Of a stretch of 37,116 nucleotides of DNA, positions 19,895 to 37,116 are shown piece after piece. Location of the stretch: positions 1-37,116 of the forward strand of contig JACQCE010000001.1 of the NCBI GenBank assembly GCA_016201765.1, in the 5' to 3' direction. The stretch is from Nitrospirota bacterium. GTDB lineage: Bacteria > Nitrospirota > Nitrospiria > JACQCE01. A program made the translations under genes and the position numbers. Every line of letters begins with the position of its first letter. Position 1 is the first letter of the stretch. A model generated the notes under the pieces. It worked only from the letters and a program-made list of their open reading frames with translations. It was not told the origin of the DNA and did not search any database.

Positions 19895-21367
19895 ATGCGA
19901 CCTCGACTTGATCTCAGATTAGCCCAAAAACTGGTGATGACGCCGCAATTGCAGCAGGCGATCAAACTGCTGCAATTGACCCGCCTGGAATTGTCTCAAA
20001 CGATCAGCCAGGAGTTGTTGGAAAATCCGGTGCTTGAAGAGACGGCCGCCGAGTCGGCCGAGGAATCGGTTCCGGAGGCCGGGGAGCGGCGCGACGAACC
20101 GTCGGACGATGCCGGGTCCGCTTCGGGCGAGAACGACCGGGGGGAGGTGGCCGCCGAGCCCTTTGACTTGAACTGGGGGGGGGCCGCCGGAGATGACGGG
20201 TCGACGGAATGGCGTGAGAGCGAGTCCGCCGACACCGCGGTCGAGGAACGCCCCTCCTACGAGCAGACGCTGACCAAGGCGACGACGCTGCACGAACATC
20301 TGCTCTGGCAGCTCAGCGTCAGCGGCCTGGATGAGGCCGACAAGACGATCGGGACGCAGATCATCGGGAATATCGATGACGACGGGTATCTGAGAACCTC
20401 CATCGATGAACTGGGGGCCGAATGCGGGGCGCCGCCGGCTCAGGTTGAGCGGGTGTTGAAGATCGTTCACACGTTTGATCCCACCGGAGTGGGGGCCAGG
20501 AGCCTGCAGGAGTGTCTGTCGCTGCAGCTTGAAGCCCTGGGTGTGCTGGACGGCGTGGCGCACATCCTGGTCACGGACCACCTGGAGGAATTGGAACATC
20601 CGGATTACGCCGCCATTGCGGCCCACGTGGGCTGCTCCGTGGAGGAGGTGGCCCAGGCCGCCCGGGTCATCGAACGGTTGGAGCCCAAGCCGGGCCGGCC
20701 GTTTTCCTCCACCGACAATCAGGTGATCATTCCCGATGTCTTTATCATCAAGGTGGAGGGGGAGTCCGAGTATCGGATCATGATGAATGAGGACGGTCTG
20801 CCCCGGCTCAGGGTCAATGAGTATTATCGCCGCCTGCTGCGCCGGCCCGGCGAGCTGTCCAAATCGACCCGTTCCTATCTGGAGGACCGGTTCCGGGCGG
20901 CGTTGTGGCTCATCCGCAGCATTGAACAGCGCAACCGGACCATCTGCCGCGTGACGGCCTGCATCGTCAAATTTCAACGGGAGTTTCTGGACCGGGGACT
21001 GTCGGCGTTGAAGCCCCTGGTGTTGCGGCAGGTGGCGGAGGAACTCGGGTTGCATGAATCGACGATCAGCCGGGTGACCACGAACAAGTATGCGCAGACG
21101 CCGCAGGGATTGCTGGAATTGAAATTTTTCTTCAACGGCGGCATCGCGAGGACCGGCGACGGCGAGGAGGCCATGTCGCGGGTGATCGTCAAGGAGATGA
21201 TCCGCGGCATGATCCAGGCCGAGGACCCGGCCCATCCCCTTCGCGATGAGGAGATCACCGCGCGCCTGCGCGAGCGTCGCATCGACATCGCCCGCCGCAC
21301 CATCGCCAAATACCGCACGATGTTGAACATTCCCTCCGCCAGCAAACGAAGACGCGCGCCGTCGTGA
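19895..21367 (+). CDS. rpoN: RNA polymerase sigma-54 factor
   Basis: LRLAQKLVMTPQLQQAIKLLQLTRLELSQTISQELLENPVLE; LGLHESTISRVTTNKYAQTPQGLLELKFFF; RpoN box ARRTIAKYR. Confidence 0.98.
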   Translation: MRPRLDLRLAQKLVMTPQLQQAIKLLQLTRLELSQTISQELLENPVLEETAAESAEESVPEAGERRDEPSDDAGSASGENDRGEVAAEPFDLNWGGAAGDDGSTEWRESESADTAVEERPSYEQTLTKATTLHEHLLWQLSVSGLDEADKTIGTQIIGNIDDDGYLRTSIDELGAECGAPPAQVERVLKIVHTFDPTGVGARSLQECLSLQLEALGVLDGVAHILVTDHLEELEHPDYAAIAAHVGCSVEEVAQAARVIERLEPKPGRPFSSTDNQVIIPDVFIIKVEGESEYRIMMNEDGLPRLRVNEYYRRLLRRPGELSKSTRSYLEDRFRAALWLIRSIEQRNRTICRVTACIVKFQREFLDRGLSALKPLVLRQVAEELGLHESTISRVTTNKYAQTPQGLLELKFFFNGGIARTGDGEEAMSRVIVKEMIRGMIQAEDPAHPLRDEEITARLRERRIDIARRTIAKYRTMLNIPSASKRRRAPS

Positions 21368-23460: not shown

Positions 23461-23488
23461 TTGACAGAATGGACTGTTCCGGTATACT
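23461..23488 (+). promoter_or_regulatory. Near-consensus sigma-70 promoter for HTH-pilMNOPQ
   Basis: TTGACA (23461-23466), 16-nt spacer, TATACT (23483-23488). Confidence 0.75.
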
Positions 23489-23597: not shown

Positions 23598-23828
23598 ATG
23601 TTGCTGAGCAGACACAAATCGGCCGGAAGCAAAGTGAAAGCCAAGCCCCGATACAAGCCCCAGGACATCTGCCGTCTGTTTGATATCTCCAAGGCGACGC
23701 TGTTCCGATGGGAGCGCGAAGGGTTGATCTCCAATGTGGGCAGGGACTGGCGGAACTGGCGCCTCTATAATGATAAGAACGTGCAGGAAATCAAAGCCAT
23801 CATGCGCGGGCGCAATGCAAAGCGCTGA
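23598..23828 (+). CDS. Small MerR-type helix-turn-helix DNA-binding protein
   Basis: YKPQDICRLFDISKATLFRWEREGLISNVGRDWRNWRLYNDKNVQEIKAIM; no effector domain in 76 aa. Confidence 0.85.
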   Translation: MLLSRHKSAGSKVKAKPRYKPQDICRLFDISKATLFRWEREGLISNVGRDWRNWRLYNDKNVQEIKAIMRGRNAKR

Positions 23829-32938: not shown

Positions 32939-33012
32939 GACCGGGTGCTGCGCTAGCTATCAGCTTTTGTTCTGTGCTATCTTTCCGCATTGAACCAACG
33001 TCGTCGCCACCC

Positions 33013-34254
33013 ATGCCGGCACACCTCAACCTGAAACAGCAGCTTCGCCGCAAGATCGGAGAGGTCGAACTGCTTCACCGGTTGAGCGAAACCGTCAGCA
33101 GCACGCTCGATCTGGATGCGATTCTCCGCCATCTGGCGGACATGGTGGCGGACGTGACCCGCGCGGACGCCTGCCTCCTCTATCTGCTGGACAGCGCGAA
33201 AGGGGAGCTGGTGCTCCGGGCGTCGAAAAACCGCCATCCGAAATTGATCGGCCGCATCACCCTGGAAATGGGAGAGGGCATCACCGGCTGGGTGGCCAAG
33301 GAGCGGACCCCCGTGAAGATCGCCCGTCATGCCAGCGACGACCCCAGGTTCAAGTTTTTTCACAACCTTCCCGAAGACCGGTATCAGGCCTTTTTGTCGA
33401 CGCCCATGATCCATCACGGGCGCGTGGTCGGCGTCATCAATGTCCAGCACAAGCGGCCGCACCAGCACACGCCCGATGAGGTGGCGCTGATCGAGACGAT
33501 CGCCCGCCACGCAGGCGCTGCGATCGAGAACGCCCGGTTGTTCGCCTCGATGAAGGAAAAGGCCAGGCAGGTTGAGATGCTCTCCCAGGTCAGCCAGACG
33601 ATCGCGTCAAACCGCTATCTCGAGGAAATTCTTCAACTGATCGTGACCATGACGGCGCAGGTGATGGGCTCCGCCATCTGCGCGATCATGCTGGTCGATG
33701 ACGACCGCCAGCAGCTGTCGATCAAGGCGACCCAGAGCCTCAGCGACGCCTATCGCAACAAGCCGCCGCTTCGCATCGGCGAGAGCATCAGCGGCCGGGC
33801 CGTCAAGGAGCGCCGGCCGCTTGCCGTCCTGGACGTGACCCGGGAGCCCGGCTACATGTATCCTGACGTCGCCAGGAAAGAGGGGCTGTGCTCGCTGCTC
33901 TCCGTGCCGATGATGATGAAGGATCGCGTCATTGGCGTCATCAACAGTTACACCTCCCAGCCGCATCCCTTTGCGCCCGAAGAGATTCAAGTTTTGTCGG
34001 CCGTGGCCAATCAGGCCGCCGTGGCGATCGAACATACCCGGCTGATGGAGCGTTCGCTCGCCATGCAGGAGGCCCTCGAGAGCCGCAAGCTGGTTGAGCG
34101 GGCCAAGGGGATGTTGATGCGCCAGCGGGGGATTTCTGAAGAGCTGGCGTTTCAATTGCTGCAGCGCCAGAGCATGAACAGCCGCAAGAGCATGCGAGAA
34201 GTCGCCGAGGCGGTTTTGCTGGCGACCTCATTACACGACTCCGACCGCCGCTAG
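33013..34254 (+). CDS. GAF-GAF-ANTAR domain regulator (predicted RNA-binding antiterminator); start uncertain
   Basis: LHRLSETVSSTLDLDAILRHLADMVADVTRADACLLYLL (GAF1); LSQVSQTIASNRYLEEILQLIVTMTAQVMGSAICAIMLVDDD (GAF2); KLVERAKGMLMRQRGISEELAFQLLQRQSMNSRKSMREVAEAVL (ANTAR). Confidence 0.9.
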   Translation: MPAHLNLKQQLRRKIGEVELLHRLSETVSSTLDLDAILRHLADMVADVTRADACLLYLLDSAKGELVLRASKNRHPKLIGRITLEMGEGITGWVAKERTPVKIARHASDDPRFKFFHNLPEDRYQAFLSTPMIHHGRVVGVINVQHKRPHQHTPDEVALIETIARHAGAAIENARLFASMKEKARQVEMLSQVSQTIASNRYLEEILQLIVTMTAQVMGSAICAIMLVDDDRQQLSIKATQSLSDAYRNKPPLRIGESISGRAVKERRPLAVLDVTREPGYMYPDVARKEGLCSLLSVPMMMKDRVIGVINSYTSQPHPFAPEEIQVLSAVANQAAVAIEHTRLMERSLAMQEALESRKLVERAKGMLMRQRGISEELAFQLLQRQSMNSRKSMREVAEAVLLATSLHDSDRR

Positions 34255-34316: not shown

Positions 34317-34335
34317 GGGCACGGTCTGTGTACCC
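34317..34335 (+). promoter_or_regulatory. Imperfect dyad GGGCAC-N7-GTACCC, candidate activator-binding site
   Basis: Dyad symmetry about 140 bp upstream of the sigma-54 element; typical enhancer distance. Confidence 0.3.
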
Positions 34336-34460
34336 GCTTCCATAGCTGTGAAAATGGCTACCCCTTTTTAAATCTCCCACATCGCTGGTTGATGAGGGGT
34401 GAAATTACATAACTATTTGAGAATACATATTATTTCAATGATTGTTGCTGCGTCGCCGTC

Positions 34461-34476
34461 TGGCACTCAAGTTGCA
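34461..34476 (+). promoter_or_regulatory. Sigma-54 (-24/-12) promoter upstream of the minor pilin operon
   Basis: TGGCAC-TCAAG-TTGCA: matches TGGCAC-N5-TTGCA with GG-N10-GC spacing; ATG of the first pilin 29 nt downstream. Confidence 0.85.
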
Positions 34477-34504
34477 CCCCATTCAGGCAGAGGACAGAGA
34501 AACC

Positions 34505-35053
34505 ATGAAACAACGACGATCGGATAAAAAGGGATTTACGCTCATGGAAGTTGCCATCACGGTTGGTATCGCGGCGGTGGTGACGGCCCTGGCGATTCCG
34601 ACCTTTCGCACCAGCTTCGCTCATTACAGTCTGACGGGAGCCGGCAGAAATCTTCTGGCCGACCTTCGGCTGGCCCAGGGACTGGCGGTCAAGGAAAATA
34701 CGGCTTATCAACTGTTTTTTGACCCGTTGAATTCCACGTATCAGATCGAGAAATGTCCGTGCAATCTGAACCCGGGCGGGGTGCATGGCACCGTGCAGCA
34801 AACCCAACGAGCGTTGAATGAATCGAACACCATCGGGCACGGCGCTCTCGATCTGGTTTCCGTTCAAGATACGTCGAGTGCAGATCGGCCGATCGTGCAA
34901 TTCGGCACCAATGGATTGGTGACCATTCCGACGACGGTGAATTTCCCTCTCACGGCCACGCTTCGGTCCAACGCCACCGGCGAGCAGATCCAGGTGAATG
35001 TCTGCCGGATGGGCAGGGTCTACGTGGTGTCGGCCGGCGATACGGGTTGTTGA
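34505..35053 (+). CDS. GspH/FimT-family prepilin-like protein
   Basis: Class III signal MKQRRSDKKG^FTLMEVAITVGIAAVVTALAIPTF. Confidence 0.92.
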   Translation: MKQRRSDKKGFTLMEVAITVGIAAVVTALAIPTFRTSFAHYSLTGAGRNLLADLRLAQGLAVKENTAYQLFFDPLNSTYQIEKCPCNLNPGGVHGTVQQTQRALNESNTIGHGALDLVSVQDTSSADRPIVQFGTNGLVTIPTTVNFPLTATLRSNATGEQIQVNVCRMGRVYVVSAGDTGC

Positions 35054-35067
35054 CGATGAGGAATGAG

Positions 35068-35538
35068 ATGAAGACGCAGGCGCACAGACAGAGACGAGGC
35101 CGGAACACCGGGATGGCCGGACAGGGAGGCTTCACGCTGCTGGAAGTGACGATCATGCTGCTGATCCTGGGGGCCGCCCTGGTCATGCTCTCCGGCGTGC
35201 AGACGACCTCCATCCGCAGTACCGGCATCGGATTCAGGCAATCGGTCGCCGTGTCGCTGATGGAACAACGGCTGGAGGAGCTGAGAGGCTTGACGTACAC
35301 CGACACGATCACCGACGCCGCGCTGACGGCTGGAGCTCATGCCGATGCCGATATCGTCATGCTCAATGGCGTCGATGTCACAGTGGTTCCCAATGCCCAC
35401 GGAATGACATATAGCCGGACCTACACCGTGGCGGACAATGACCCGACTGCGGACGTGAAACTCATCACCTATAACATGACCTGGAACGACGGCATCGCGC
35501 ACACGCTGACCATGGCCACCAGAGTGGGGAAAAACTGA
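35068..35538 (+). CDS. pilV: PilV-like minor prepilin
   Basis: GQGG^FTLLEVTIMLLILGAALVML; GAGGA 6 nt before ATG 35068; gene order FimT-PilV-PilW-PilX-PilY1. Confidence 0.85.
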   Translation: MKTQAHRQRRGRNTGMAGQGGFTLLEVTIMLLILGAALVMLSGVQTTSIRSTGIGFRQSVAVSLMEQRLEELRGLTYTDTITDAALTAGAHADADIVMLNGVDVTVVPNAHGMTYSRTYTVADNDPTADVKLITYNMTWNDGIAHTLTMATRVGKN

Positions 35539-35539
35539 G

Positions 35540-36379
35540 ATGGACCGCCGGGTCGAAACAGGCATGAGCCGCGCAGAGGGACGACGGGGGCTGACCCTGA
35601 TCGAAATGATGATCGCCCTGCTGTTGATGAGCTTTGTGATGATTTTCATTCAGGGCGTCTTTGTGACCCAGCGGAAAACGTACGTGGTGCAGGAGGACGT
35701 TTCTGACGCGCAGCAGGCGGTTCGGAACAGCCTGAGCCTGATCGAGCAGGACCTTCGATCGGCCGGTTATGGCATTCCTGCCGGATCGGGGACGCTGGCG
35801 ATTTCGGCCACGACGAACGGGAACCCCGATTCGCTCACCATGAACGTGGCGCAGGGTCCCACGACGTACCTGACGCTCACGCCCACCACGACCACGACCA
35901 TCACCGTGGCGGATGTCACCGGCTTTGCGGCGACCCAGTCCGTCACGATTCTGAACACCGTGTCACAGCAGGCGCTGGTGACGGGAACGATCGTCGCGGT
36001 CAATGCAGGCGCCAAGACACTTACGTTTGCCAATGGCACGATTCCCACGACCGTGAAACTGGGCGATCTGGTGGTCAGCAGCATCAATGTCATCAGCTAC
36101 AGTCTGGCTGGCACGAGCCTGACACGAACGGTCGACGCAACGCCGGAGGTGTTGACCAATCAAATCCAGAACCTGCAGTTTCGTTATGTCCTGGCCAACG
36201 GCACCGAGGTGGATGATCCCAGCGCATCGGGCGATCTGGCGAACATTCTCACTGTCCGGGTCACGCTGACGGCGCAGACGACCAGGCAGGCCTCAAGAGA
36301 CAGTTTCGGCAATCCCCTTGCCAGGCAATTGACCACCCTGGTCAGGGTGAAGAATCTGGCCATTCAAACCTCGACGTGA
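35540..36379 (+). CDS. pilW: PilW-like minor prepilin
   Basis: GRRG^LTLIEMMIALLLMSFVMIFIQGVF...DAQQAVRNSLSLIEQDLRSAGYGIP. Confidence 0.9.
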   Translation: MDRRVETGMSRAEGRRGLTLIEMMIALLLMSFVMIFIQGVFVTQRKTYVVQEDVSDAQQAVRNSLSLIEQDLRSAGYGIPAGSGTLAISATTNGNPDSLTMNVAQGPTTYLTLTPTTTTTITVADVTGFAATQSVTILNTVSQQALVTGTIVAVNAGAKTLTFANGTIPTTVKLGDLVVSSINVISYSLAGTSLTRTVDATPEVLTNQIQNLQFRYVLANGTEVDDPSASGDLANILTVRVTLTAQTTRQASRDSFGNPLARQLTTLVRVKNLAIQTST

Positions 36380-36389
36380 GGGAGCGGTT

Positions 36390-36890
36390 ATGACCACGCA
36401 CAGATCACGGAGACGACGGACGATGCCTGGGGTCTTGGGCCAGGAACGGGGCGCGGCCCTGGTCATGAGCCTCGTGATCATGCTGGTCCTGACCTTCCTG
36501 GGCATCATCGCCATGCTGACCTCCACGACGGAATTATCGCTCTCCGGCAATTATCGCCTGTCAAAGGAAGCCTACTACGCGGCCGACGGCGGGATGACCT
36601 ATGTCCTGAGGGACAAGCAATATTTTGCCCTGACCAATCCCACGACGCTGACCACGCCGAATTTCCCGGTCGGCGGCGTGGATTTGACGGTCAACGGGGC
36701 CTCGGCCAGCGGAACGGTGGAATTGCTGGCCTCCAACCAGGCAGCCCCGGATAATACGGGAAATGATGTGACGATCAACGGCCAGGTTCATGCAAATTAT
36801 TACAAGGTGACTTCACTGGGCAGTGGGAATCTCAACTCCCAGAGTCGTCAGATTGTGATCAAGGCGGAGCTGGTTCCCAGCGGGAACTAG
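36390..36890 (+). CDS. pilX: PilX-like minor pilin
   Basis: GQERGAALVMSLVIMLVLTFLGIIAMLTSTTELSLSGNYRLSKEAYYAADGGMTYVLRD. Confidence 0.9.
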   Translation: MTTHRSRRRRTMPGVLGQERGAALVMSLVIMLVLTFLGIIAMLTSTTELSLSGNYRLSKEAYYAADGGMTYVLRDKQYFALTNPTTLTTPNFPVGGVDLTVNGASASGTVELLASNQAAPDNTGNDVTINGQVHANYYKVTSLGSGNLNSQSRQIVIKAELVPSGN

Positions 36891-36917: not shown

Positions 36918-37116
36918 ATGGACAACCGGACACGGATGACGCGCATCGCGGCTCTTCTCCTTATGGCGGCCTGGCTGGCCTGGCCCGCCGTCGGCTCCGC
37001 AGACGACACCGAAATTTACGGATCGAGCAATGCCGAGATCAAGCCCAACGTGCTGATCATTTTCGACAACTCGGGCAGTATGAATGACACCATTCATACG
37101 GCGCATTATGACCCCG
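36918..37116 (+). CDS. pilY1: PilY1-like adhesin/assembly factor, N-terminal fragment (continues beyond window)
   Basis: Direct translation: MDNRTRMTRIAALLLMAAWLAWPAVGSADDTEIYGSSNAEIKPNVLIIFDNSGSMNDTIHTAHYDP; signal peptide plus DNSGSM MIDAS-type vWA motif; AGGAGG-like SD. Confidence 0.88.
   Translation, partial: MDNRTRMTRIAALLLMAAWLAWPAVGSADDTEIYGSSNAEIKPNVLIIFDNSGSMNDTIHTAHYDP

Follow-up and report, generated by a model that had tools for sequence, protein, structure and literature searches.

Conserved sigma-54 promoter element and candidate operon-specific enhancer upstream of the minor-pilin/pilY1 operon in Nitrospiria

Introduction

Minor pilins and PilY1 prime the assembly of type IV pili and carry the adhesin, and their level can therefore decide whether a cell makes pili. 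The window analysed here, a stretch of 37,116 nt that constitutes the whole contig C17 of a 1.96 Mb, 86% complete genome from the class of Nitrospira, ends in such a gene set, preceded by a -24/-12 element. Does sigma-54 drive the tip genes of the pilus, separately from the pilMNOPQ base, and through which activator? An original prediction from the sequence answered the first part affirmatively, citing sigma-54 control of pilA through PilR. RpoN/PilR control of pilA is indeed established in Geobacter, where the pilR gene is the immediate upstream neighbour of pilA (PMC2725144). However, this precedent does not transfer automatically to minor pilins, because in P. aeruginosa PilR did not seem to act directly on the minor-pilin genes: they are altered in a pilR mutant, an effect judged indirect by the authors (PMC6058289). 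A search of the open-access full-text literature (subscription papers being outside its scope) returned no title or abstract joining Nitrospira pili with a sigma-54 minor-pilin promoter. We know of no worked-out pilus genetics for this phylum, which includes nitrite oxidisers.

Results

A -24/-12 element precedes the tip operon

The element and the genes behind it occupy the following positions.

34461..34476, plus strand: -24/-12 (sigma-54) promoter element TGGCACTCAAGTTGCA, an exact match conserved upstream of fimT
34486..34488, plus strand: predicted transcription start, placed by sigma-54 geometry 11-13 nt past the GC
34490..34494, plus strand: Shine-Dalgarno-like GAGGA for fimT, read from the sequence just downstream of the predicted start
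34505..35053, plus strand: fimT-like minor pilin, first gene of the operon (PF12019, PF07963; prepilin leader MKQRRSDKKG/FTLMEV)
35056..35538, plus strand: pilV-like minor pilin (GFTLLEV prepilin motif and homology only; same position in relatives)
35540..36379, plus strand: pilW-like minor pilin (PF07963; 39-44% identity to f6 homologues)
36390..36890, plus strand: pilX-like minor pilin (PF14341 PilX_N, E=2e-13)
36918..37116, plus strand: 5' end of pilY1 (50-65% N-terminal identity to f6 proteins, including one with the PF05567 beta-propeller)

Direct reading at 34461-34476 gives the layout T-GG-CACTCAAGTT-GC-A, with GG at 34462-34463, GC at 34474-34475 and an N10 spacer, and leaves 28 nt between the end of TGGCACTCAAGTTGCA and the fimT ATG at 34505, confirming the exact spacing, the two consensus halves and the distance originally described. 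The remark that no comparable element was seen in the other intergenic regions checked also holds in the window: TGGCACTCAAGTTGCA is the sole match to TGGCAC-N5-TTGCW at zero mismatches, and the sole match at one mismatch (6925, minus strand) is intragenic. Pfam domains, the prepilin motif and homology to relatives confirm the predicted downstream set as fimT-pilV-pilW-pilX-pilY1; the contig stops 66 codons into pilY1, which was identified via the relative carrying PF05567. Elsewhere, at L290:3362-6946 (minus strand), a pilW-like open frame with a prepilin leader reaches 1194 aa, compared with about 280 aa in other cases, and is possibly a pilin with an adhesin-like extension.

The element is conserved across the class

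Relatives at class level (Nitrospiria) served as comparison genomes. With the FimT protein as query against 58 of them, 26 loci with a readable start were obtained, the window counted among them, and 250 nt upstream of each were scanned with shuffled sequence as control. In 14 of the 26, the first minor-pilin gene is preceded by a site that has no more than one mismatch, against 0.04 expected from shuffles, and all 14 sites lie 26-79 nt from the start codon; five further loci have two-mismatch sites 13-63 nt from the start. The sites with at most one mismatch come from families f1, f2, f5, f6, f8 and f9, and f11 contributes at two mismatches. The element is retained despite differing upstream neighbours, namely a GAF-ANTAR gene in the window, PilR in f9 and f5, and a second set of pilins (set B) with an ACT-domain gene in f6. 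Conservation in relatives, whose absence would have spoken against the original prediction, is seen at minor-pilin operons in several families, and this class-wide retention at the same gene supports a sigma-54 promoter there. Very probably, as far as sequence comparison can indicate, the promoter at 34461-34476 expresses fimT-pilV-pilW-pilX-pilY1.

A palindrome and an IHF-like site lie upstream of the promoter

Between the upstream gene and the -24/-12 element, three further features are found.

34326..34345, plus strand: candidate upstream activating sequence CTGTGTACCCGCTTCCATAG, a diverged copy of CTATGTAATNNATTACATAG (13/18 match, 133 nt from the TGG)
34378..34387, plus strand: CACATCGCTG element, common to f6 relatives near -80, between palindrome and promoter
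34410..34422, minus strand: IHF-like site TCTCAAATAGTTA, one mismatch to WATCAANNNNTTR

The palindrome CTATGTAATNNATTACATAG occurs upstream of the tip operon (set A, fimT-pilV-pilW-pilX-PilY1) in f6, f8, f9 and f11. For most of the relatives checked, its distance to the TGG of the -24 box is 130-143 nt, and in f11 it is 108 nt. Its exact 16-bp core has four occurrences among 270 class genomes, each before the tip operon and once per genome where present, against one place for the reversed core; these four hits are independent of the window. For the diverged copy CTGTGTACCCGCTTCCATAG, shuffling gives P values of 0.0056 anywhere in the gap and 0.00055 within 128-145 nt, and since the palindrome statistics were computed after the motif had been seen, they carry some selection bias. 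A MAFFT alignment, which set the palindrome opposite 34370-34382 with large gaps, was discarded for the distance-constrained match. No full palindrome within two mismatches is present in the window's own genome. The palindrome is also absent from pilA promoters and, in f9, from the set-B promoters beside pilR. Three near-identical relatives do have a 13/18 match at pilA promoters, by chance and at the wrong distance. The IHF-like site follows the palindrome core by 64-66 nt, on the same strand and in the same place in five f6 relatives, and a candidate palindrome-IHF-promoter layout with near-fixed spacing appears common to the window and f6. As far as we know, such a candidate enhancer specific to the tip operon is new.

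PilR is the likeliest activator

A full sigma-54 gene is encoded in the same window, as originally pointed out.

19895..21367, plus strand: rpoN (sigma-54), with AID, CBD and DBD all present (TIGR02395)

Its proximity is probably incidental, because sampled Nitrospira keep the pilQ-aroB-GAF/ANTAR block without minor pilins. The genome encodes 12 full sigma-54 activator domains, and a genome search of the kind proposed with the original prediction found a PilR-type activator on contig C63. There, a PilD-PilS-PilR cluster places a response regulator (REC, sigma-54 activation, Fis-type HTH) beside a PAS-HisKA kinase. Eight relatives encode a response-regulator enhancer-binding protein (EBP) directly in front of fimT, to which this regulator, C63:84252, is 58-67% identical. 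The next of the genome's own EBPs compared reaches at most 50% against the same proteins, and C63:84252 is therefore their clear counterpart.

The arrangement of these genes differs between families. In f9 and f5, pilR is directly upstream of a minor-pilin set that has a sigma-54 site in front. In f6 the genes run PilD-PilS-PilR-(DUF6941)-orphan EBP-set B minor pilins-(ACT-domain gene, opposite strand), followed by the palindrome, the sigma-54 site and set A; stretches long enough to show it have an MshEN protein after set A. In the window's genome the same pieces are split: C63 carries PilD-PilS-PilR-orphan EBP-set B-MshEN, and set A lies in the window downstream of pilMNOPQ, behind the GAF-ANTAR gene. 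Set A appears to have been relocated with its own promoter, or else the f6 order is the derived one; in both cases the operon keeps its promoter. The second minor-pilin set on C63 (fimT/pilV/pilW/pilX-like; L116, G000:C63:74000-92000) is located behind the orphan EBP, a 742-aa protein that matches no Pfam family in its N-terminal half, and no close sigma-54 site was found in front of this set.

PilR homologues are present in f6, f8, f9 and f11, the palindrome-carrying families, and PilR is probably the activator of the tip-operon promoter, being the likeliest candidate on these genomic grounds. If PilR reads the palindrome, its absence from pilA and from the f9 set-B promoters is odd, and pilA without a palindrome leaves room for a dedicated factor. 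A sigma-54 promoter whose palindrome is read by such a non-PilR activator, be it an EBP or not, would uncouple the tip even from PilA; the restriction of the exact core to the tip operon and the 12 activator domains speak for this possibility. We nevertheless regard it as rather unlikely, given the PilR homologues in the palindrome families and the usual location of an EBP gene near its target promoter (PMC2725144). In addition, the orphan EBP would be the obvious alternative candidate, but a search of f8 and f11 genomes with good palindromes did not find it, a distribution that disfavours it as the palindrome reader.

Other origins of tip-operon transcription

The gene upstream of the gap is the following.

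32998-34254: GAF-GAF-ANTAR protein, conserved in Nitrospira (about 63% identity), where its gene likewise neighbours aroB and pilQ

Its product was considered as a linked regulator and rejected: in sampled Nitrospira the GAF-ANTAR gene is followed by other genes, the pilin operon being absent there, and among the retrieved relatives none of the genes upstream of fimT matched it. The operon might instead be transcribed mainly by readthrough from this gene, no terminator having been detected in the gap between it and fimT, or from a weak sigma-70-like match in that gap (ATTACA-18-TATTAT, 34404-34433, 9/12), leaving the -24/-12 element minor or silent. However, 0.3 such matches are expected by chance, and the upstream gene varies among relatives while the -24/-12 element is constant, making this origin quite improbable.

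Genome-wide, perfect matches number 5 in 1.96 Mb, against 2 for the reversed pattern used as background control. With up to one mismatch allowed, the raw number of sigma-54 sites proves nothing, because it shows no excess over that control (51 against 52). Placement was used instead: by a custom gene caller, 27 of 50 near-consensus sites are intergenic, compared with 3 of 30 for the reversed control (Fisher P=5e-5), and the genome therefore has a real sigma-54 regulon. That TGGCACTCAAGTTGCA is a functionless chance match, as the equal near-match numbers might suggest, is extremely improbable in view of this enrichment and of its conservation before the same operon in several families, where 0.04 sites were expected. 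The genome's own pilA (contig C80) also has a near-consensus site, 93 nt upstream, and most relatives have sigma-54-like sites 56-112 nt in front of pilA, with one mismatch (4 loci), two or three. Own pilA and fimT upstream regions share one 8-mer only, which is uninformative. Another intergenic sigma-54-like site, TGGCATCCCTGTTGCA (G000:C63:77708-77723, minus strand), is located in the pil cluster, 58 nt upstream of a gene for an MshEN-domain protein.

The pilMNOPQ base has a different promoter

The head of the pilMNOPQ operon contains two features of interest.

23461..23488, plus strand: sigma-70-type promoter of pilMNOPQ, TTGACA-N16-TATACT, exact
23598..23828, plus strand: gene for a 76-aa MerR-type HTH protein (PF13411, E=8e-8), the first in the pilMNOPQ operon and also conserved in relatives

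The -35 and -10 boxes are exactly as originally proposed, but they lie 361 nt before pilM, with the small MerR-type gene between. The promoter recurs letter-for-letter in 26 of 29 relatives, and no sigma-54 site (at most two mismatches, 400 nt scanned) is found upstream of pilM in 30 loci (29 or 30, L161 not being in frame there). In many relatives the -10 box falls within the palindrome ATAGTAAGTATACTTACTAT or a closely similar sequence, a position that suggests that pilMNOPQ may be autoregulated by the small MerR-type protein. The promoter contrast behind the predicted separation of tip and alignment complexes holds class-wide, and separate control of the tip genes and the pilMNOPQ base is well supported at the level of sequence.

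Discussion

From what is observed, namely conserved sequence elements at characteristic spacings and a genome that contains the activator genes, we infer the following mechanism. Sigma-54 polymerase at 34461-34476 would start transcription near 34487 and express fimT-pilV-pilW-pilX-pilY1, the tip/priming complex of the pilus. A bacterial enhancer-binding protein would bind about 120-150 nt upstream, as at other sigma-54 promoters, on the palindrome, which is degenerate in the window (34326-34345); an IHF-like bend around 34410-34422 would bring it to the polymerase, and ATP hydrolysis would open the promoter. Activation would most likely come from the PilS-PilR pair, the genes of which lie on a different contig (C63). 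The pilMNOPQ operon would be expressed separately from its conserved sigma-70-type promoter, with probable autoregulation by the MerR-type protein at the operon head. We tentatively propose, short of holding it probable, that the Nitrospiria tip operon has its own 20-bp palindrome enhancer and the base a MerR-autoregulated sigma-70 promoter, placing tip, fibre and base under three controls.

Sigma-54 control of type IV pili is of a known kind; what would be new is the operon-specific enhancer and the split between tip and base control. As in the PilS-PilR/RpoN-pilA systems of P. aeruginosa, Geobacter sulfurreducens and Myxococcus, there is a sigma-54 pilin promoter and an NtrC-family regulator beside a histidine kinase, but the strongest site in the present case is that of the minor-pilin/pilY1 operon. 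The place that pilR takes upstream of pilA in Geobacter it takes upstream of fimT in several of our relatives. The P. aeruginosa fimU-pilVWXY1Y2E operon, an equivalent minor-pilin/PilY1 gene set, is known to be under AlgR control. That operon is also reported to depend on Vfr/cAMP (PMC6058289), whereas a direct sigma-54 element is conserved here. Pseudomonas PilR sites are reported to have TGT-N11-AGA and GTCT as hallmarks (PMC6058289), unlike the TGT-N8-ACA in the 20-bp palindrome, the exact core of which was seen at the tip operon only. A further parallel is the predicted PilR regulon of G. sulfurreducens, in which, as cited in PMC6058289, many type IV pilus genes have a predicted sigma-54 promoter in front. 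Like our sites, these are predicted sigma-54 promoters at pilus genes, but they belong to another phylum and to a regulon that is prediction only. We know of no single-operon palindrome in that regulon.

If the proposed mechanism is true, the combination of a sigma-54 switch on the tip operon with a constitutive-looking base promoter would describe a machine that is pre-built and armed on signal. It also supplies a concrete candidate operator sequence, together with candidate regulators, for the type IV pili of the phylum Nitrospirota.
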